A stretch of 64,000 nt of DNA, taken from the NCBI RefSeq assembly GCF_030445035.2, contig NC_080682.1:32594770-32658769 (forward strand), written 5' to 3'. Under the pieces are notes generated by a model. That model searched no databases. It was given only the letters and a program-made list of their open reading frames with translations, and was not told where the DNA came from. The translations under genes and the position numbers were made by a program. Of the stretch, positions 9,735-58,600 are shown one piece after another. The stretch's first letter is position 1. Each line of letters starts with the position of its first letter. The DNA is from Dasypus novemcinctus. Lineage: Eukaryota > Chordata > Mammalia > Cingulata > Dasypodidae.

Positions 9735-10534
9735 GATCCAATTTTTCATTTAAATAACTGATCTATCTGCAAATAGCACAGGAAATGCCATAGTGGTAGA
9801 TCAATTTTGTTCAAGAAAATAATATATCTCTCAGGTAATTTGTTCCTTTTAACGTTGATGTTAACCCAAGCATACAAAGTCTATACTTAAGTACCACTGT
9901 ATTTTTAATCAAAACATTGTTGATTGCAAAATCCTCTTCTATATACACATACACAGACAAGCACCATGAGAAAAACAGCATCTGTTACTTGTGGCTGGTT
10001 ATGCTCATGTTTTTCTTCAGACTGAGGAATCCCCAGAGTCTGTCCTAACCAACATTTTTAAGTGTGATTTCAGGAGATATTTAAATTGATATTACTTAAG
10101 GGTATTCTGTACTTTCAGTTCCCAGAGGATTAGAATTAGCAGCTGCAGTTAAGAAGGCAGCCAAAAAAGTTCATCCTGTTCTCTCTTATGGCTGTAGCAT
10201 CTATGACCATGGTTGGAGTTGGGGGGCAGGGATAGGGCAGGAATGAGAACCAGTTAGGCTAGGTTAGCAGGCTCTTTGTGAAAATAGTTTGGAAGTGATC
10301 CTCCAGTCTGGGATATAAGGCACATAATGTTCTACTGTTGAGCATATGGGTGCATGAACTAATTAGAGACTATATACAACACTATTGATACATATCTCAA
10401 AGAATTAAAAATAGACTAAGCATGTGAAAAAATCCAGATCAATACAAAACTTCTATTTTTCTGTTGAAACCCTGAGGAGAGATACAAGCAGGACAGAAAC
10501 ACTATTGTCTAATATTAAAAATTGGAATTATTCA
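9735..10534. other. OR copy 1 upstream flank with deletion point
   Basis: Upstream side of the OR pseudogene. It aligns to 36598-36840 and then jumps to about 40190, so roughly 3.3 kb of the copy 2 upstream region is missing at about 9965-9985. No promoter element could be identified. Confidence 0.6.
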
Positions 10535-10765
10535 CAGGAGTAAGAGCTTTGGAATACAGCAAGTCTAACCTTCTAAGGCTATCTCTTCTACTTATTAATT
10601 ATGCAAAGTTTGGCAAGATAATCCAAGTCTTTTGCCTCAGTTTCCATATCTGTACAAAGTGGATGACATGGTACTAATCTCATAGGACTGTTCTGGGTTT
10701 ATGTGAAACAATGTATGATATGTGTTTAGAATGCTGCTTGAGATAGAGCAAAGGATCATTGTTTG
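10535..10765 (+). repeat. MIR SINE
   Basis: The core motif order is that of MIR: AGAGCTTTGGAATACAG, then GCCTCAGTTTCCATATCTGT, TCATAGGACTGTT and TTAGAATGCTGCTTGAGATA. The same MIR sits at the matching place in OR copy 2 (40725-40950), so it predates the OR duplication. Confidence 0.75.
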
Positions 10766-11134
10766 CCTCTATCACTTTCTGTACAGAAAATGAGAGCTCA
10801 TGAATTTACTAACCAGGTTTATTATTGTTTCATTCATTCAGCAATTGTTTCATTTCATTCATGTAACTTGCTTTATTTTTCTCTGCATTTGAGAAGATTC
10901 TGGAAGAATGCTGAAATTAGAAAAGAAAGACTAGTTTTGTGACCCTCAATACTTATTCAAGATTGATAATAATTAAACGTTTTCAATAAGGTGTTAGATC
11001 TCTTTACTAAAATAACTGACAGTGATGTTGAGATTTCCTAAAAAGGTTGAAGGAGTTAACGCAATTATAAATACCATGTGAATTAACAAGTATCAAACAT
11101 TTTCTAAGCATAGATCACTCATTATGTGAGAATT

Positions 11135-11310
11135 ATATAGTGCGGGAGATACTAATGTCTCCATTTTCTATATAATGAAATTAATGCTAACTTTGAACAT
11201 GACTTGGATAGGATCTCAATGCTAAAAATAAGTAAATCTTAGTTTTACATCCAGGTTGATATGATTCCAAGTTTGTATTCTAGTCAATGTGTTATGTTAC
11301 CTCTTCAGAG
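11135..11310 (-). repeat. MIR SINE, antisense
   Basis: The word order of antisense MIR is visible (TCTCCATTTTCTATATAATG, then a TTACATCCAGGTTGAT-like block). It is shared with 41335-41500 in OR copy 2. Confidence 0.55.
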
Positions 11311-11644
11311 ACTGGTGCTATGATGTGTCTTATTCACTGGTTGTGATTGCAGAGAAATCCTGACTCAGACAAGCTCGTCTTTCTACCATTAGTGGCAGAC
11401 AGTGTTTATTCTTCAGACAGATCCACATCAAGCAGCTCAAGAAAGAGTGATAGAGAAAATAGAATATCTTGTAACTTCCTTTGCTAACTCCTAAAAAGTC
11501 TGGAGGAATTACCTAAGCACTATCAAGACACATTTGATTCTGGGAATTTCTTAGAACCTACAGGATGGAAGAAAAGTATAAGAAGTTCAGACTTAGAAGC
11601 AGGGACATCACCTACATGAAAAGTATATGGTAACATTTTAGAGA

Positions 11645-12110
11645 AATTAAACACATATCTAATTTTGCCAGTGCTGCTATGACACTACAACACAATGTGT
11701 TGGCTTAAACAATAAGCATTTATTGGAAGTCCAAAATCAAGATCTCAGCAAGATCATGCTCTGTCTTGGACTTGGTAATATTAGAATAATGGCAGCCCTC
11801 TGTCACACGAACATATCTTGGGTTACCTCCTGTGACTTTCCCTGACTCTGGCATCTCTGATAGTTTCCAAACTTCCTCACATAATAAGGCTTCCAGTTTT
11901 GGTGACTATGTCCTGTCCTCTTTGAGTTTTGCCTTACATAAATAGTATCTTCAAAGATACTGCTCACAACTGAGTTCACAACCCAACATATTCAAAGATA
12001 CTGTTTACAAATAGGTTCATTCAACCAAGAACATGGGTTTAGATCAGGACCCTTTCTTTATTGGGATACCTGATTCAGTCCTCAATACCACCAAACACAT
12101 GAATTTAGAG
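11645..12110 (-). repeat. Old interspersed repeat shared by OR copies 1 and 2
   Basis: It begins GCCAGTGCTGCTATGACACT and continues with a TTAAACAATAAGCATTTATT block, resembling a widespread old mammalian repeat. I cannot name the family safely. The matching copy is at 41845-42330. Confidence 0.45.
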
Positions 12111-13038
12111 ATGATTCCCAATAGTTCCAATAACTAATTATATGACTCAATGAATCTCATTTAACTTTCCTGAGCTTGTGAATAAACTATAGATAAAAGT
12201 ATGTAATTGGAGGAAGGAATAGCAAAGAATAATAATTGAAATCATCCATTGACAGTATTTATGCATAGAAAATACTTAGAAAATATTTTGTGAATTAAAT
12301 TGAAAGAAAGGTTTTGAAAGTAGATGTATCAATTACTACTTCATTGGTCTTTATCATTTTTTAATTTCTGACCAATATACTTGGTTGCTTTGTGAAATTC
12401 CTTCTGCCTCCACTTTTCTTCTGCACAATTAAAGATTGCAAAATATAGAGTTGCTATAAAAACCTAACTATTAACTAAAAGGGGAAGATTTATTGAGGAA
12501 GAATATGTTTGCAATGGATAAAATTGATCACGTGTTAATGTCAGTGAGAGAAAATTAGTAGAGGTGAGGAGAAAAAGTAAGAGAGAGAAAGAATGAAAAG
12601 ATATAGGATAGAAGAGGGGTAATCAGTAAAGGCTGGGGTGTGATAGACTGTTAATTGCTAACAGATTTTCTATTAGAATCTATTCTATTCTGGTGTCAGG
12701 CAATCATGCTTTTCAGGGAAATTGAGTCCATTCCCAAACTAAAGATGCAAATGTGGATTACATTTAGTTCAGATTAAAGCAAGTATGGTAATGAAATTCT
12801 TCTTCCAGTAATATATAAGAATAGGCAAATGGTAAACTTCTAGCCAATGCAGCAGGAGAGAAAATTCTAGAGGTCTTCTGGAAGATGTTCCTGTGTTCTA
12901 AAAAGAGAGAAATGAAGAAAAATTAAGTTTTCAGAATGATGCCCTCTGAAAGGTATACGGAATTGTCACCAAGCAGTGAATACTGAGCTTTTTAACTGCC
13001 AAGCTTTTGGACTGACCCTATAAAAATACACACCATTT

Positions 13039-13050
13039 GAAAGGCAATTG
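13039..13050 (+). repeat. Target site duplication, left copy
   Basis: GAAAGGCAATTG here is repeated exactly at 14817-14828, bounding the retroinsertion between them. The unoccupied paralogous site is near 43246-43275. Confidence 0.9.
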
Positions 13051-13096
13051 ATAAGAACAGATAATACACTTAATCTTAGTCAAAAGGCTGAGAAGC
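13049..13096 (-). pseudogene. U2 snRNA 5' fragment, antisense, at the L1 5' junction
   Basis: Read on the minus strand, the text runs GCTTCTCAGCCTTTTGACTA and on through AGATTAAGTGTATTATCTGT to TCTTATCA. This is the 5' region of spliceosomal U2 snRNA (about nt 4-51, including the branch-site recognition region) with four clear substitutions, three of them transitions. It lies between the left target duplication and the L1 3'UTR, and is part of the same insertion event. It has no promoter and no 3' half, so it is a retroposed fragment, not a gene. Confidence 0.88.
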
Positions 13097-14816
13097 AACA
13101 GCAGGCACATGGTTGGGAGGGAATTCTCCAGAACATATACATAGGGTACACAAAAATGTTTGGATATATGTTGGGTATTTTCTTAGTAGTTACCTTACAA
13201 AAGACAACTGAGGGAGTACTGAGTTCCTAGCCAGGGGAGCTCTATCACATTCCCCAATGGAATAGCAATAATCCATCAAGTGCAATGACAAAGACCAACA
13301 AAGAGGGATAGTCCAACCATGAACCCTTGATACTGATGACTATGCTTATGAGACTGTGTGCCTGAAATATGAACTAGGCCTAGAGTGGCAGGGTGCCTAA
13401 GAGTTACCTCCTGAGAGCCTCCATGTTGCTCAAATATGTCTTCTCTCTAAGCCAAACAAGCATGTAAATGCATTACCTTCCCCTCAGCCTGGCACATGAC
13501 TCCTGGGGATGAGCCTCTCTGGTGCTGAGGGATTACTACCAAGCACCAGCTGGTAATGTAATTAGAAAAAGATCTTGAATAAAAAGGTCAGCTAAGACCA
13601 GGAGACTGTCTCACCCTACATGTAGGATCATGTGTTAAAAACTGCTTTTTCATCTGGCATAAAAGGGGGAAATGGCAAAGACAAATGAGTTTATATGATT
13701 AAGAGCTCTTCAGAAAAGAGTCAGAGGTCATCAATGGGGCCATGCTTATGCACGCCTCAGCAGGACCCCAGAGACAGCCAAGTAAATACTGGTTCTGCTG
13801 AGGGCTAAGGAGCAGACCCACAGTTTCTATAGTCATGACAAATGGCTCTGGAATTCAGCGCTGTTTCAGGTGGCCCTACTTTGGAATTCATGTTCCTGAA
13901 TGTGATGGAGTTGGACTCCATTGTGACCTTTCTACACATGTCTCTTCTGCCACTTTTACTGAAACAGTGGTTGGTGCTATGGTTGGCATATACTCAGGAG
14001 ACTTGAATCTCTGGACTGACCACCTGATAGATGGGCCCTGAGCCTCAGCAATCTTGCAACTCCTACCCTCTGGTTCACTGGACTTACCCAGGCCAGCTAC
14101 CAGGGAGTTGAAGATGGTCAACTACCCCACCGAGAGTACCTACAACTTCAAGCAGGGGAATTGCATCCATCATTCATATGGAATTTAAGCCTACTCTTGA
14201 TTTAGAGGTGGAGTGAACATCACCATCCCAGGGTCCACAGGATGGAGAAATAGAGTACAAATTAGAGTGGATTTACTGATATTCTATTCTAGAACTATGT
14301 GATTAGTAATGGAAGAAAATGTAGCATTGATATGGAGTAAGTGGTCACAGTAGTTGCTGGGGGCAGGGAAGGGGAAGAAGAGATGTGATGTGGGGGCATT
14401 TTCAGGACTTGGAGTTGTCCTGAATGATGTTGCAGGGACAGATACTGGACATTACATATCCTGCCATAACCCATTGTGTGGACTGGATGAGAATGTAAAC
14501 TACAATGTTTACTGTTATCCATGTGGTGCGGCAGTGCTCCGGAGTGTATTCACCAAGTGCAATGAGTGTGCCGCGGTGGTGATGGGGGTTGTTAATGTGG
14601 GAGGAATGGGGTAAGGCGGGCTGGGGATATAAGGTAACCTCTTATATTTTTTGAATGCAACATTTTTAAAAAAAATAAAGAGATCATGGGGGGGGGGAAA
14701 AGAAAGCACATTAGAGCATACCAGGGGAAAGGCACGGATGTGGGTAGGAAACTTAGGAGAATATTTGTAAAATACATAAAAAAAGAAAAAAAGAAACCAG
14801 TTAATTTAAAAAAAAA
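13051..14816 (+). mobile_element. Composite L1 3'UTR (module B) retroinsertion
   Basis: The element is bounded by exact 12-bp duplications (13039-13050 and 14817-14828). From the left it consists of an antisense U2 snRNA fragment to 13096, L1 3'UTR module B from about 13100 to 14675, and about 135 bp of unrelated sequence ending in a second A-rich tail. Module B matches 47600-49190 and 60950-62625 in order. There is no L1 coding sequence. It inserted in OR copy 1 after the OR duplication, because copy 2 has the empty site. Confidence 0.9.
14680..14816 (+). other. Probable L1 3'-transduced segment
   Basis: After the usual L1 end and A-rich run (14668-14678) there are about 115 bases not found in any other copy of module B in the window, starting with a nine-to-ten-G run. 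A second A-rich tract (about 14780-14816) follows and runs into the target duplication. This is the layout of read-through past a weak L1 polyadenylation site, with mobilisation of the flank. The source locus is not in this window. Confidence 0.7.
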
Positions 14817-14917
14817 GAAAGGCAATTGGTTGATTCATACTGGATTTTACTTAAAATTACATTTAGTACTGAAGGAAGTAACTCTTTTTTTAACTTAATT
14901 TTTAAAGAAGTTTTAGA

Positions 14918-35658: not shown

Positions 35659-36597
35659 CTATTTACATGCTTTGCTACATGACATGATGCTTTTGTCCCA
35701 AAGCATCCTCATTGCTTTTTTCACTTCTGCATTTCTAAGTGTATAGATTAAAGGGTTTAACATGGGTGTTATCATCTTATAAAATACTGCCACAAATTTA
35801 TCAATGGGAAAAGTGCTCATGGGCCTAACGTACACAAATATACAGGGCACGAAGAATAAGACAACTACAGTAATATGTGAGGCGCAGGTGGAGAAAGCCT
35901 TCCGTCGCCCTTCAGAGCTGTAAGATTTCAGGGAGCAGAGGATGAGGACATAGGAAGTAATAAGAATAGAAAAACTAAGCAAACACATAAACCCACTGTT
36001 GGTGGCAACAAAAGGCCCAATGATGTGCATGTCAGTACAGGAGAGCTTCAGCAGAGGGTAAACTTCACAGGAGAAATGGTCAATGACATTGGGTCCACAG
36101 AAAGGTAACCAAATAATGAAAAGGATTTGAATTAGAGCATGAAGAAATCCCCCAACCCAGGTCAGGACCACCAAAAAGACACACATGTACCGATTCATTT
36201 TTATCATGTAGTGCAGAGGTCTGCAAATAGCCATATAGCAGTCATAGGCCATCACTGAGAGCAAGATAATCTCAGCTCCACCTATAACATGCTCTACAAA
36301 GAGCTGGGCCATGCAGCCATTGAAAGAGATAGTTTTCTTCTCAACAAGTAAGTCAAATATCATTTTGGGGACTGTGTTAGAACAGAAGGCACCATCCTGA
36401 AATGATAAGCAAGACAGAAAAAAATACATAGGGGAGCCCAGAGCAGGACTGCTGGCAATTGTCACTATGATGAGTAGGTTGCCTGACATGGTAAGAAAGT
36501 ACATGGTTATAAACACAACAAACAGGAGTTTCTGCACATCTGGATTCTGCGTCAGGCCAAGGAGGACGAATTCTGTCACATTTTTCACTTGCTCCAT
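35659..36597 (-). CDS. Olfactory receptor, OR4C-like, intact
   Basis: This encodes a 312-residue class II odorant receptor, a seven-helix GPCR expected in the plasma membrane of olfactory sensory cilia, where it would signal through the olfactory G protein. The single-exon frame is uninterrupted. Landmarks: N-glycosylation site N6-V-T8, TM1 GN at 39-40, LGSPMYFF at 53-60, Cys95 and the EL2 cysteines 167, 177 and 187, TM5 SY at 215-216, KAFSTCASH at 233-241, and PMLNPLIYTLRN at 278-289. The TM3 DRY motif reads D119-C120-Y121, so the arginine is missing. I chose the Met at 36597 because the family begins M-x-Q/L-x-N-x-T/V-EF. An upstream in-frame Met at 36642 would add 15 residues. The OR4C affinity is from recall. 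The ligand is unknown and no promoter motif was identified. Confidence 0.93.
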   Translation of the reverse strand: MEQVKNVTEFVLLGLTQNPDVQKLLFVVFITMYFLTMSGNLLIIVTIASSPALGSPMYFFLSCLSFQDGAFCSNTVPKMIFDLLVEKKTISFNGCMAQLFVEHVIGGAEIILLSVMAYDCYMAICRPLHYMIKMNRYMCVFLVVLTWVGGFLHALIQILFIIWLPFCGPNVIDHFSCEVYPLLKLSCTDMHIIGPFVATNSGFMCLLSFSILITSYVLILCSLKSYSSEGRRKAFSTCASHITVVVLFFVPCIFVYVRPMSTFPIDKFVAVFYKMITPMLNPLIYTLRNAEVKKAMRMLWDKSIMSCSKACK

Positions 36598-38049
36598 GAT
36601 CCAGTTTTGTATTTGGATAATTGATGTATTTCCAAATGGCATGTGGATTGTGATGTTGGTAGATTAATTTTGATCAAAACAATATAATATCTCTCGGGTA
36701 ATTTGTTTCTTTAGGATCGATGGTAACACAAACAGACAAACCTTAGACTTAAAGTACAACTACTTTTAGTCATATACAGTGTTGAATACATAACCCCCTT
36801 TTACACACACACATACATGCAAACACGGTTTATGGCTGTTTTCATGCAAGAGACATTTCATCCAATCATATACAGCTGTGTACTCTCCTTTTTAAGCCAC
36901 AGGATTGTCTCAAAAAGAAAAAGAAGAATAAGTAACTGGGCACTTAATGACAAGCAGAGGCCTGAATTCCTGAGCATATGCTTCCCTGTCTAGTTATTTA
37001 GCCTGAAGAGTCTAAACTTATCATCTTAGCCTTTTTAGTTTTATCTTGTTTTATGCCAACTATCAAACATCAGGTGAGTTCTATATAAAATTAGGGATGA
37101 TGCCACATTTAAGACATAATTGAATTGGGTGAACTTGACGCTACAGAAAAATGCACGTGACAGTTATATTTGTGAGCTCGTGTATCATTGAAACAGAATT
37201 GCATAAGAATATCATTGATTCCTTATCAGACAACTCTCCAAGAATGATATCTTGAAGAGGATAAAAGAGTCAACTTGATGCGTTGAAATATTCACCAAAT
37301 TTATTTGTAACTTTAGTTCTTATCATTTGGAGGAAGTTTTGTCACAATAAGCTTCATGGTATTTTGTAATTCAACACTCAATTTAAGGAAGTTATGAAAC
37401 ATTCTCTGGACCTGTCCAGAAAATAGATATTTTAATATTAGGACATAAAAACAACATAATTAATTGGACAAAGCATGTAAAGTAGGATAGATATAATTAT
37501 ATTTTGTTTTCACTGATAAGTAGTTGTGTAATATTGTATATGAGCTCTAGTCTTATTGAGCCAAATTTTTTTCATATATAATGTATGAGAAATAACAAAA
37601 GGCATAGAAGAATTGAAGAACATCACTATTTCTTATATCAAAGTTTGTATCCTAAATGTAAAAATATAGTTTTCCACACATCTCCAAATGATTTTTAAAA
37701 GATCCAAAAAGAGAAAAGCACATATCCTAATTTTCATGATTAAAATAATTCCTTATTAAAATATAAGAGAAAAATAAACTATGAGTGTATATAAATGAAG
37801 TACTCACTGAAAGATGTTTGAAAAATCAACATATTCAGAAAAATTTGCCTGCAGAAATCAATACCGCAAGCAATAAAAAAATATTAGACAATAAAAAATT
37901 CAAAAGCGTGTTGGCATTTGAAGATACCCTTAAAGGTGATGAATATTAATAAGCTCAATTAGAAGCATGTAAGTTCAGATCCTGAAAGGTCATTCATATA
38001 AACAATATTTTTAAAAATATTATGCATGTTTCAGTGATGGTAATAGAAT
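36598..38049. other. OR copy 2 upstream flank
   Basis: Bases 36598-37030 align to OR copy 3 (63571-64000). From about 36850 on there is no counterpart in copy 1. The rest is AT-rich with no recognised feature. A short alternating AC stretch lies at 36805-36820. Confidence 0.5.
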
Positions 38050-39240: not shown

Positions 39241-40724
39241 TAAGGACAAATTTTGTGTTCTTTTGTAAAATCAGTTTTGTGATCCTAGTTTTTTTTACAA
39301 AGAGAATATATTGTCTTTATTGTAAATAAAATAATTTAATAAAAGATTTACATTTTTTTTCTTTTATCTGGCTCCATAGTATCTTAAGTGATTCCTTTCA
39401 TGAGTATATTGTGTATGCTGGTTATTATTCATAAAGATCTGTGATAATACATCATATATTTAAATCTTACTTACCTGCAAACTGAAGATCTTAGTGTCAC
39501 CCTGATAGAAAATTATCAATAGAGAAGTCATTGGTCTTCTCTTTCTGATATAATAAGACAAGAAATAGGCTCAATCTTTGACAAGGCATCTTAGCTATAA
39601 AAAACATGTTTCATGAACCTTCCAATTACTGACCCCTCACTGACTTCTGCTTTTCAAATTGATCCATTTTTACCTTAAGTATAGTAATTATGACTGTTTA
39701 GGGAAACTTCCTTTGTAAAGCAGAGTTCATGGGCAGAATATATTTTTAGTCTGTAAATTCACACCAACCTGTAAATGTGGTCAACAAGCATTCCGACTCA
39801 GATAATAAATTTCTTTAATCAGAAAATTTCCAAAGCTTTAAGCTTCAGTGGATATTTGGTGGAGAAGCTTAAATTTTTTGACAGATGTCTTTCCAGGAGT
39901 CTTCTTCTTGTGTGTTTGCTCTTTTAATCTTTAGTGACTATGTGAAATATAATACAGAGTCACTTGAGATTAGTTCAAACCATATTTAAAACAATAGAAA
40001 TAGAAAATTATGTTGAAACAGAAAATTCATAGATAGCCAGCATTAAAAACTCTACAGAAAATGCAGTTGTCTTGAAGTAGCAAGTTCCCATTTTCACCTT
40101 TTTTTAAGACTGCTCTTAAGAAATTCTGTGCTCAGCCTAGAGTTAGCACCTTTGGTCATTGAGATCCTGGATCCCTATGCATTGGTAATGCAGACTGAAG
40201 CTTCTGTTATTTGCAGCTGCTTTTACTTACGTGTTGTGCAGGCTGAGGTATCACTAGAGTCTGTCTTTATCAACATTTTGAAGTGCAGCTTCAGGTAAAT
40301 TTTTAAATTGATATTACTTAAGGGTGTTCTAAACTTTCAGTTCCCAAAGTATTAGAATTAGCAGCTTTAGCCAAGATGGCAGTCCAACCAGACCATTCTG
40401 TGTTCCCTTGTGGCTTTGGAATCTGCAACCATGGTGGGGATGAAATCCATTTAGGCTGGGCTAACGGACTTGCAGTAGTTTGGAAGGGAACTTCGAGTCT
40501 AGCACCTAAGACACAGAATGTTCTAGTGTTGATAGTACAAGTCCATGAACTAATCAGAGCCTATAAAGTAGCCCTATTAGTACCTGTCCCAAAGAATTAA
40601 AAAGAGGACTAACCATGTGGAAAATCTAGATGAATACAAAACTGCTATTCCAGTGTTTATGTCCTGAGTATAAACGCAAGCAAGTTAGAGATACATGCTG
40701 TCTAATATTAAAAATCAGAATCAT
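39241..40724. other. OR copy 2 flank, no gene
   Basis: From about 40190 the sequence again aligns to copy 1 (from about 9985). A small + strand frame (40376-40600) is not open in copy 1. Nothing else is recognised. Confidence 0.45.
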
Positions 40725-40950
40725 TTCCAAGTGTAAGAGCTTTGTATTACAACAAGTTTAACCTCCTGATGCTGTCTCTTCTACTTAATAAATTAATTTA
40801 GGAAAGTTTTTCAGTCTCCTCATGTCTCAGTTCCCATATCTGTACAGAGAATGATAAGGTACCAATCTCATAGGACTATCCTTGAGTTATATGAGATAAC
40901 GCATTAATTGTGTTTAGAATGCTCCCTCAGATAGAATAAAGGTTCATTGT
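40725..40950 (+). repeat. MIR SINE
   Basis: MIR word order is present (TCTCAGTTCCCATATCTGTA, TCATAGGACTATC, TTTAGAATGCTCCCTCAGAT). Orthologous in position to the MIR at 10535-10765 of copy 1. Confidence 0.75.
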
Positions 40951-41334
40951 TTGATCTTGACACCTTCTTTATAGGAAATGTGAGCTCATGGTGCTACTGA
41001 CCAGTTTTATTGCAGTATTTGTACCAATTCACAGAGGTAGCTTGATTTATTGTTCTCTATATTTGGTGAGATTCAGGAAGAATGCTGTCAGTAAGAGAGA
41101 AGAAATGCCAAGTTTTCTTGTATTCAATAATCATCAATGATTCAATGAATCATAACAATTCAAAAATCTTCTATGAGTGATCAATCTCTCATCAAAATAG
41201 CTAACAGTGATGTTGAGATTCCCTGAAAAGGTTATATGAGTTAATGGAAATGTAAATATGATTTTAATTAACAAATAACAAGTACTTCCTAAGTATCAGT
41301 CACTTTGATTATATGGCAATTACATTCTCACATA

Positions 41335-41500
41335 ATTTCATGGTGGAGATACTAGTATTTCCATTTTGAATATAAAGAAATTGTTAACTCTGAGCATTAC
41401 TTGGTTAAGATTTTAATGCTGATAATTAGAAATGCTTGGATTCAAATCCATACTAATTTTGATTTCTAAGTTTGCGATCTGATACATAAATTATTGTCCA
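41335..41500 (-). repeat. MIR SINE, antisense
   Basis: This is the counterpart of 11135-11310: AGTATTTCCATTTTGAATAT, then TTGGATTCAAATCCATACTA, the antisense MIR order. Confidence 0.55.
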
Positions 41501-41844
41501 CAACACGCAAGGATGCTGTATGTGTCTCATCCACTGGATGTGATATGAGAGAAATGCTGATTCAGATTAGCTCTTTGTTCTACTGCCAGCCAGAGAGTAT
41601 TCCTCAGACATATCCCACATATGGAGCTGATCAGGAAAGAGAAGATGGAGAAATTGGAACATCGTATAACTTCCTTTGCTACCTCTTGAAGTATCTAGAG
41701 GAATTGCCTAAGCTCAATCCAGAATGCTTTGATTCTGGGAATTACTTAGAGCTTACAGGATGGAAGGAAAGTGTAAGTAGAAGTACAGCTTTAGGAACAG
41801 GGACTTTCTCTACATGAATATCATATGGTAAGATTCTAGAAAAT

Positions 41845-42330
41845 TATAAACATATCTAAATTTGCCAAGGTTGCTATGATAATGTCTCACAATGAGTTGC
41901 TTAACAAAAAATATTTATGGAAATCTATAATCTAGATATCAACAAGGACATGATCTCCTTCAAAGTTTGTAGCATTGTAGTGATGGAAGCCTTCAGTTAC
42001 ATGACTATGCCATTGGTAACTTCCTGTGCTTACTCTGACTCTGACATTTGTGATTGTTTCCAAATTTCCTCACTTCATAAGGTCTCCGGGCATGAGAACT
42101 AAGACATGGTCTCATTGGTTTTGCCACACCTAAATAGTATATTAAAAAAACCTGTTCACATATGAGTCCTCACCCTGACATATTCAAATATACTGTTTAT
42201 AATACAAATGGATTTACTCTGCCAAGATCATGGATTAAGATGAAGTATGTATGTGTCTTTTCTGCAGTGCATGATTCAATCCCTCCCTATCACCACCAAA
42301 AACCTGAATGTGGATATGATTCCCAATTCA
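41845..42330 (-). repeat. Old interspersed repeat, counterpart of 11645-12110
   Basis: It starts at GCCAAGGTTGCTATGATAAT and aligns with the copy 1 repeat through AACCTGAATGTGGATATGAT. The family is not named. Confidence 0.45.
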
Positions 42331-43325
42331 TCCACCTACTGATTATATAGCTCCATGCATGTAATTTAACTTATCTAAGCCTGTAAATAAGTCTTAGATA
42401 AAATAAGGCAGTTGGAATGTGTACAATAGGTAACAATTGAAATCATCCACAACTATATTTATGGAAAGAAAATACTTGGAAATATATTCTGTGAATTGAA
42501 TTAAAAAATGTTTGACAGTATATGTACCCACTACTACATCACTCTTGGTTAATATTTATTGAATCCTGAACTATTTGTGTGATCTTTGGCTACTGATTCA
42601 ATTTTTTTGTGCCTCAGGTTTTTGTTCTGCAAAATAAAAATTTGCAAAATATAGGGACCTTGTATGGATCCAAAGAAACACTAAAAGGGGGATATATTAT
42701 TGAGACTGAATATGTTTTGTTTTGGAGAAAATTGATCAAGTTTAGTAATCAATGGGCAGAAAATAATACAAGTAGAGAGAGGAGAATGAAAGAGAGCGAG
42801 TAAAGATATAGGATAAAAATGGGGTAGTCAATAAAAGCATGTTTGAAAAGGTAGATGTTAATTTTTCACAGATTTCTTTCAGTCAGACTTGGTTTTGTTC
42901 TGGTGTAAAGTGGTCATGAATTAGAGGGAAAGTTGAGTACATTCTTAATCTAAAGTAGTAAATGTGGATTGAACATGAATTATACTTAACCGATTATGGT
43001 AATGTAATTCTTATTTCCAGTTATGCCATAAGGATAGACAAATAAAATTCCAGCCAATATAACAAGAGAAAAAGAACCTTGAAAGGCTTTTGGAAGATGC
43101 TCCCATGTTCTTATAAAGAGAATAATGATGACAATTTTCCTTTTCTGAATAATGTCCTCTGAAAGGGATACTGGAATTTTCACCCAGAAGTGATGGATAG
43201 GTTTTTGAACTTGGAAGCTTTTGAATTGACCCAGATAAAATCCACACCATTCAAAAGATAACTGATTGTTTTTTACTGGGTTTTATTTGAAACTGCCTTT
43301 ACTACTAAAGGACATAACATTATTT
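42331..43325. other. OR copy 2 flank with unoccupied retroinsertion site
   Basis: It aligns to 12120-13050 and then directly to 14829-14890 of copy 1. The site CACACCATTCAAAAGATAAC at 43246-43265 is the empty counterpart of the copy 1 insertion. Confidence 0.75.
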
Positions 43326-43794
43326 CAAGACCTGTAATAACCATATATTATGGGTTATATGATAGTCATTCTAGCAAGAAGTGAACATAAGAGTTCTTTT
43401 AGTCAATAGAAATACAATTTCAATTACTTCTTGTATGGGTCCCATTGCATAGATAAATAGGTGGCTTCTCTGTCTTTGAAACCTGTATTAGATCACCATG
43501 AGGAATTATCTAATCTTGAAGCTTCTGATCTGTTATTGGAGGAGGTATAGCAAGAAGAATGTTTACAGATGATAGCTCAGATTGCAGGGCCAACACTCCA
43601 TCCGCCAAGCAACAGCAAGAATGCCTGGAGTTTTACTATATTTTTAAATTGTTTTTTCTTGATTCACTACTCATCCAGTTCCTACAATTCTTTATTCTAG
43701 AGTCCTGAGAAAGATGTATCTACCAGTTTTTGCTAGTTTTTCAATGTTCTGTAGGGAACAGAACCCTGGAACACTTCACTCCCCTTTGTTGGTT
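43326..43794. other. No recognised feature
   Basis: Beyond the end of the OR duplication. No gene or nameable repeat is seen. Confidence 0.35.
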
Positions 43795-55605: not shown

Positions 55606-58600
55606 ATGGCTAACAAAAATAATTCCTTGAGAGTAATAACACTGAATGTCAACGGATTAAACTCACCTATCAAAAGATTCAGACTGGGACATTGGATAAG
55701 GAAATGTGACCCATCTATATGCTGTCTACAAGAGACACAACTTAGACCCAGAGATTCATGGAGGCTGAAAGTGAATGGTTGGAAAATAATCTTACAAGCA
55801 AGCAATAATCAAAAAAAGGCAGGAGTAGCTATATTAATATCAGACAAAATAGACTTTAAATGTGAAACAATTGTGAGAGATAAAGAAGGATACTACATAT
55901 TAGTGAAAGGGACAATCTCTCAAGAAGAACAAACAATCATAAATACTTATGCTCCTAACAGGGGCACCTCCAAATAATTGAGGCAAACACTGGAAAAACT
56001 AACAGAAAGAATAGATGCATCTACAATTACAGTGGGAGATTTTAATACACAACTATCAACTCTGGACAGAACATCTCATAAGAGAATCACTAAAGAAACA
56101 AAATATTTGAACAGTATATTAGAGGAGCTGTATCTAATAGACATATACAGATCATTACATCCAAATACAGCAGGACATACATTTTTCTCAAGTGCACATG
56201 GATCATTCTCCAAGATAGACCATATGCTAGGCCACAAAGAAAGGCTTAATGAATTCAGAAAGATCGAAATCATACAAAATAATATCTCTGACCACAGTGG
56301 AGTGAAGCTGGAAATCTGGGAGGGCCAGAAGCCCAGATTTCACACCAAGATATGGAAATTAAACAGTACACTCTTAGAAAAACAGTGGGTCAAAGAGGAA
56401 ATCTCAAAAGAAATCAATAACTACCTTGAAACAAATGATAACAATAACATGACATAGCAAAACTTATCAGATGAAGCAAAAGCAGTATGGAGAGGGAAAT
56501 TTATAGCCATAAATTCATACATCAAAAAAGAAGAAAGAGCCAAAATTGAAGAATTAACTGCACATTTGGAGGAATTAGTAAAAAAACAAAAAAGTAACCC
56601 CACAGGAAGAAGAAAGAAAGAACAAAGATAAGAGCAGAACTAAATGAAATAGAAAATAAGAAAGTACTTGAAAAGATAAACAAGACCAAGAGCTGGTTCT
56701 TTGAGAAGATCAATAAAATTGACAAACCCTTAGTGAGATTAAGAAAGAAAAAAAGAGAGAAGATGCAAATGCACAAAATAAGAAATGAGAAAGGAGATAT
56801 CACCACTGACCCCACAGAAATAAAGACTATCATAAGAGGATACTTTGAAAAACTATATTCCAACAAAAATGACAATTCAGAGGAAATGGACAAATTCCTA
56901 GAAACACATAAGCAGCCTATATTGACGAAAGAAGAAACTGATGATCTCAACAAACCAATCACAAGTAAAGAGATAGAATCGGTCATTAAAAAACTCCCAA
57001 TTAAGAAGATCCAGGGCCAGACGGCTTCAAGGGTGAATTCTACAAAACATTCCGGAAAGAACTAACACCAATCCTGTTGAAACTATTCCAAAAAATCAAA
57101 ACAGAAGGAACATTGCCTAACTCCTTCTATGATGCCAACTTTACCCTAGTACCAAAGCCAAACAAAGACACCACAAGACAGGAAAATTCCACACCAATTT
57201 CTCTAATGAACCTAGATGCAAAAATACTTAACAAAACACTTGCTAATCATATTCAACAACACATTAAATGAATTATACACCACAACCAAGTGGAATTCAT
57301 TCCAGGTATACAAGGATGGTCCAACATAAGAAAATCAATCAATGTAATACATCATATAAACAGTTTGAAGGAAAAAAATCACATGATTATTTCTATAGAT
57401 GCAGAAAAAGCATTTGACAAAATACAGCACCCTTTCTTGATAAAAACACTGCAAAAGTTCAGAATACAAGGAAATTTTCTGAACATGATAAAGAGTATAT
57501 ATGAAAAACCCACAGCCAACATCGTTTACAATGGAGAAATCCTAAAATCCTTCCCTCTAAATTCAGGAACCAGGCAAGGGTGACAACTCTCTCCCCTTCT
57601 ATTTAACATTGTCTTAGAAGTACTTGCTCAAGCCTGAGGCAAGAACCAGATATAAAATGCATTCAAATTGGAAGGGAAGAAGTCAAAATTTCATTATTTA
57701 CAGATGACATGATCCTATACATAGAAAACCCTGAGAGGTCTACATCAAGGCTTCTAGAACTCATAAATGAGTTTAGTAAAGTTGCAGATTATAAGACCAA
57801 TGTGCAAAAATTGGGAAACGGACTTGGCCCAGTGGTTGGGGCGTCCATCTGCCACATGGAAGGTCCGCGGTTCAAACCCCAGGCGTCCTTGATCCATGTG
57901 GAGCTGGCCCATGCGCGGTGCTGATGTGCGCAAGGAGTGACCTGACATGCAGGGGTGTCCCCATGTAGGGGAGTCCCACGCACAAGGAGTGTGCCCATAA
58001 GGAGAGCCATCCAGTGCGATGGAGAGTGCAGCCTGCCCAGGAATGGCGCCACCCACACTTCCCGTGCCACTGAAGACAACAGAAGTGGACAAAGAAACAA
58101 GATGCAGCAAATAGACACAGAGAACAGACAACCGGGGTAGGGGGGGAATTAAATAAAAAAATAAATCTTTTTTTAAAAATGTGCAAAAATCAGTAGCATT
58201 TCTGTACACCAATAATGAGCAAGATCAGGAGGAAATCAAGAAACAATTACCATTTACAATAGTAAATAAAAAAATCAAATATTTAGGAATAAATTTAACT
58301 AAAGATGTAAAAAATTATACACTGAGAACTACACAAGACTATTCCAGGAAATCAAAGAAGACCTAAATAAATGGAACAATATTCCCTGTTCATGGATAGG
58401 AAGACTAAATATTATTAAGATGTCTATCCTACCAAAACTGATCTACACATTCAATGCAATCCCAATAAAAATCAACACAGCCTTCTTTAAGGAACTAGAA
58501 AAACTAACTATGAAATTTATTTGGAAAGGAAAGAGGCCCCGAATAGCCAAAGACATATTGAAAAAGAAAAATGAAATTGGAAGAATCACACTACCTGACT

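Follow-up and report, generated by a model that had tools for sequence, protein, structure and literature searches.

The window analysed here, a stretch of 64,000 nucleotides that is part of contig C12 in the armadillo genome (3.61 Gb searched), carries an insertion at 13051-14816 in which a piece of U2 snRNA, a truncated L1 and a tail follow one another. An exact 12-bp target site duplication (TSD), GAAAGGCAATTG, brackets all three together, and none of 2000 random draws reached a TSD length of at least 12. Since the exact TSD copies lie at 13039-13050 and 14817-14828 (plus strand), the 46 bases at 13051-13096 that are the reverse complement of U2 nt 49-4 (minus strand) fall inside the duplication, and the L1 3'UTR adjoins them directly, both as the initial annotation had read the site. 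The L1 starts at about 13097-13099, where the U2/L1 junction is now AAC and where the U2 end (GCGAT) and L1 (TTGAT/TTGAC) share GA(T/C).

The 5'-truncated L1 3'UTR runs from 13100 to 14679 on the plus strand and ends in AATAAA (14674-14679); L1 matches elsewhere start at 13098-13106 (39 other loci among the matches listed). The L1 assignment comes from homology with the sequence 3' of reading frames, taken to be L1-like, at 54.6-59.8 kb of the window. Within an L1 region a weak tRNA match was also seen (57818-57891, plus strand, 31.2 bits, E 0.015), perhaps a tRNA-derived SINE. The inserted L1 has its 3' end and an A-rich tail. Ahead of the terminal nine-base A-run (14808-14816, plus strand) it is followed by an extra segment of non-L1 sequence at 14680-14807 (plus strand), on which the initial annotation is silent and which is a likely candidate for a 3' transduction. 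The presumed endonuclease site in the L1 orientation (bottom strand) is TTTC/AAAT, which departs from TTTT/A by one base.

The U2 fragment

The Rfam U2 model (RF00004) hits the minus strand at 13007-13099 with 44.3 bits and E 1.4e-5 for the whole window, slightly below the gathering score of 46, and a scan of the window at the default gathering cut-off returned no entries. This is the better of two Rfam matches with E of at most 0.1 in the window; chance was taken to explain the weaker matches, among them one to SNORD36 (E 0.37). Local alignment to the U2 letters covers 13046-13096 with 46 of 51 bases identical and a score of 77, against 31 for the next best U2 alignment elsewhere in the window and a maximum of 32 in 30 dinucleotide shuffles, and so with the E value a chance origin of the match is ruled out. 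The reference letters, which we take to be those of U2, are identical to this genome's own U2 (locus L001) over nt 1-70; a search of viral contigs for U2, meant as an independent reference, gave 0 matches.

The fragment is 3'-truncated, stopping at nt 49-51 of about 191, and lies antisense to the L1 with the U2 5' end facing it. Counting the bases common to both neighbours it spans about nt 51-2, with TG (nt 51-50) common to U2 and the target at the left edge and, at the right edge, a GA (nt 3-2; it now reads AA) that U2 probably shares with the L1; base 13098 there agrees with U2 nt 2. Over nt 2-49 there are five differences from the reference (nt 3, 11, 20, 28 and 36), of which four are transitions and two fall at CpG sites, and so the U2 copy looks old.

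Paralogous sites and related L1 copies

The region around the insertion is duplicated, so that the target can be compared with copies of itself. Within the window 9977-13052 aligns with 40199-43266 at 70.7% identity, and this tandem duplicate holds a paralogous empty site at 43165-43341 (plus strand) that aligns straight across the insertion point at 43264/43265. Seven further matches to the left flank lie on contig C12 (L041-L047). U2 and L1 were looked for at the insertion point in the eight paralogous sites and neither was present in any of them: the seven further contig C12 paralogs score 16-26 for U2 and 21-27 for the first 495 L1 bases, and the whole insert scores 25 against the window duplicate. 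The right flank aligns directly across the site in five of the eight (the window duplicate and L041-L044), and the TTTGAAA cleavage site is kept in five (L042, L043, L044, L046 and L047). Two points count against this control, namely that a 6-bp gap falls within the target-duplication bases of L041, the closest paralog (88% over the flank), and that the right-flank match is weak in L045-L047 (scores 20-31). More generally, the window is tandemly duplicated at 8.5-13 kb and 35-43 kb, a region with presumably olfactory-receptor-like frames such as that at 35659-36663, and contig C12 has further copies of the flank at around 30.7 and 41-42 Mb.

Because the eight paralogous sites are without U2 and L1, and five of them align straight across, a single event is most likely. 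Two successive insertions, a U2 pseudogene and then an adjoining L1 or the reverse order, might be considered given how often this genome carries 3'-truncated U2 alone within a TSD of its own (28 of the 63 U2 loci read), but at the window the TSD flanks U2 plus L1 and not U2 alone, which is not the arrangement of a solo U2 pseudogene, and the eight sites lack both pieces. We regard this order of events as extremely unlikely.

Whether the U2 piece might belong to the L1 family itself was addressed with other L1 copies. The best 40 of 757 first-look candidates for the L1 junction were scored, 39 of which lie outside the window locus, and upstream sequence was read in 29 of these 39 (among the matches listed). 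U2 was found in 0 of the 29; at the junction point they have ordinary L1 sequence, with the majority reading TTATTGATGGGGGGCACATGG and a best local U2 score of 27 as against 77. U2 as a family component, the finding that the initial annotation had named as speaking against a junction chimera, is thereby ruled out by these copies, and the earlier reading of the U2 as a junction chimera stands.

A related proposal is that the source RNA was already chimeric, an antisense U2 pseudogene upstream of an L1 fragment having been read through into one transcript which was then inserted by ordinary target-primed reverse transcription. U2 pieces are common enough for this (470 matches to nt 4-28 with at most three mismatches), but among the best 40 of 757 candidates U2 is joined to the L1 point solely in the window, and a genome-wide search for the source of the tail segment (query 14681-14800) matched nothing except the window itself. 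Moreover such a source would itself be a chimera, because U2 ends at nt 2-3 exactly where the L1 is truncated. This reading seems very improbable, and a junction formed during the window insertion itself is preferred.

U2 pieces across the genome

A genome search with U2 nt 4-28, allowing up to three mismatches, gave 470 places (244 and 226 by strand), and the reversed control pattern searched genome-wide gave 0. Sixty-three of the 470 were read (L049-L112, from 100 listed; 30 and 20 loci, with 13 in short form). These were ordered by mismatches and are the best conserved, not a random sample, and comprise 14 full-length copies, 28 solo 3'-truncated copies with an exact TSD of at least 8 (the largest class, 22 and 6 from two scans with slightly different bounds), four sense U2-L1 joints (L060, L062, L063 and L069), two antisense U2-L1 chimeras (L097 and L100), one antisense U2 with a non-L1 A-tailed piece (L083) and 14 unclassified. 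The suggestion that other L1 3' ends preceded by antisense U2 should be sought has thus yielded two more.

At L097/L099 U2 nt 54-6 are followed by about 1.85 kb of L1 3'UTR, with an exact 10-bp TSD, AAAAGTGTAC, and two extra G before the U2. At L100/L113 the U2 reaches nt 2 and the L1 3'UTR then starts about 20 bases upstream of the window L1 start; in the other direction the local U2 match extends to nt 44 with mismatches. A 10-bp repeat, AAATACTACA, was read by eye at both ends of this insertion, where the scripted TSD scan covered sequence further left and listed none. Within that repeat ATACTACA is also U2 nt 39-32, and since TSD and U2 share 8 bases the boundary is ambiguous and the TSD is weaker evidence. 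At L083 (reverse strand, 1180-1474) U2 nt 41-4 are followed by about 240 bp with AATAAA and an A-rich end, all within an 11-bp TSD, GTCCCCAAAGA. The partner of about 240 bp gave no match to three window L1 copies, and the locus possibly reflects twin priming on U2 while another RNA was mobilised. That U2 reaches nt 2-6 in these three genomic cases carries no weight as evidence, since a match to nt 4-28 is built into the search pattern. The idea that U2 breaks at one fixed nucleotide did not survive the comparison: the breaks lie at about nt 51 in the window, 54 at L097, 39 at L100 and 41 at L083.

For the sense joints, L063 has U2 nt 1-52 and L1 with a TSD of 15 bp, and L069 has U2 nt 1-97 and L1 with a TSD of 16 bp; their L1 3'UTR joints are 3 bases apart in reference coordinates. 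A fitting TSD of at least 9 was sought at L060 and L062 and was absent, and so these two may not be single events. Four further loci (L061, L090, L094 and L096) resembled U2 beside L1 but showed no chimera structure and were rejected. At L061 an A-rich tail follows a full-length U2 within a separate TSD of 12 bp, and at L094 a U2 of full length carries an A-run; no TSD of at least 9 was found at L090, L094 or L096.

Proposed twin priming and its alternatives

The window locus very probably goes back to one old L1 insertion in which U2 snRNA served twin priming as the second template. Twin priming is favoured because the U2 is antisense, its 5' end faces the L1, its 3' break is internal and a single TSD is present, and simple template switching is disfavoured because it would put U2 in sense with the L1, as in chimeras of the U6 type. 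The preference of the initial annotation for a twin-priming variant over simple template switching is thereby supported. In the proposed pathway the L1 endonuclease would nick the bottom strand at 5'-TTTC/AAAT, and primary reverse transcription would copy the L1 RNA with its read-through 3' flank and stop in the 3'UTR. After a second cut the top-strand end ...CAATTG-3' would form about 5 bp with U2 nt 50-54, the reverse transcriptase would extend it to the U2 5' end, and the U2 cDNA may then have been linked with that of the L1 through about 2 bases that they share (GA).

The target end AATTG, set against U2 nt 54-50 and read from its 3' end, shows Watson-Crick pairing at two bases, a T-G wobble at the third and two further pairs, and 0.86% of random window ends are equal or better than these five pairs including one wobble. 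Strict pairing at the window break is 2 bp, and 7% of random ends do as well. The target pairing and the GA overlap are compatible with priming and joining through short pairing and are not proof of it. As a counterpoint to twin priming, the joining step would leave no unique trace, and the proposed mechanism is read from sequence.

Alternatively, end joining could have captured a ready-made U2 cDNA or DNA fragment where the 5' end of the L1 insertion lay open. The U2 break of L097, with its two extra G and no target-U2 match, speaks against twin priming and is as end joining can leave, and the strict match at the window break is 2 bases. However, the U2 of the window ends close to the 5' end of the RNA, without any of the upstream flank of a U2 gene (compared with L002), and base pairs between target and U2 are found at the break in the window (5 with the wobble), at L100 and at L083 (strictly 2, 8 and 3, with 0 at L097). 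Capture by end joining is judged unlikely, and twin priming on U2 RNA remains the preferred route.

Structures of this kind have a precedent. Doucet et al. (2015; PMC4476161), in the parts drawn on here, describe inverted and 3'-truncated chimeras (U1/L1, U2/L1, one U6/L1 and four with U5), note for U5 a complementarity with the target site, and put forward twin priming as the mechanism. Their Group IV of inverted U1/U2/U5/U6-L1 chimeras is like the window insertion in having a 3'-truncated snRNA opposite to the L1 between one TSD; target complementarity at the break is also a feature of that group, and in the window it comes to five pairs with one wobble, or two strict pairs. Novelty, which the first reading of the site had implied, is therefore not supported, and the window insertion is a clean example of a rare, already described L1 insertion accident. 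The cases in those parts of the paper are from the human genome (its Table 1 assigns one U2 copy to the class 'repeat'), whereas here the genome is non-human, there are several cases and one is joined to a non-L1 piece; a count table in the same paper includes an armadillo row. For the combination of U2 snRNA, LINE-1 and armadillo, the open-licence literature gave no paper besides this one.

Law and Burns (2026; PMC13174262), in the portion used here, list U2 among known chimera partners and report an antisense bias for 5S, tRNA and U5, which in their view may indicate twin priming. Their antisense 5S rRNA, tRNA-half and U5 L1 chimeras resemble the window case in that the 5S start is at the L1 junction and the RNA is truncated and antisense, but their breaks are recurrent (5S at 46 and 90) and the U2 breaks here differ between cases. 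Searches of the open-licence literature for antisense U2/L1 found nothing further than these two papers.

The sense U6/L1 chimeras made by template switch or RNA ligation also have an snRNA at the truncated 5' end of an L1 and one TSD, but the U6 is in sense and typically full-length, in contrast to the antisense and 3'-truncated U2 of the window. In the twin-priming L1 5' inversions for which Ostertag and Kazazian (2001) are cited, the second target end likewise primes internal reverse transcription, the second template there being the L1 RNA itself and here U2. Antisense U2/L1 chimerism is documented here in a genome other than those of the published human cases consulted, and the copies of the duplicated site without the insertion are an unusually good control. 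Because sense U2-L1, antisense U2-L1, antisense U2 with other sequence and solo U2 coexist in one genome, template switching and twin priming can be set side by side as routes taken by one small RNA.

It is conceivable, though we hold it doubtful, that the U2 5' domain is a preferred second template for twin priming in this lineage, chosen at nicked ends that resemble branch sites, and that U2 also captures the ends of non-L1 RNA insertions as at L083. The target end of L100 pairs over 8 bp with a stretch of U2 containing GUAGUA, the branch-recognition stretch. Among the 28 solo 3'-truncated copies, with TSD-shared bases counted, the U2 match ends at nt 53-59 in four and at nt 31-42 in 24, a zone that surrounds the same stretch.
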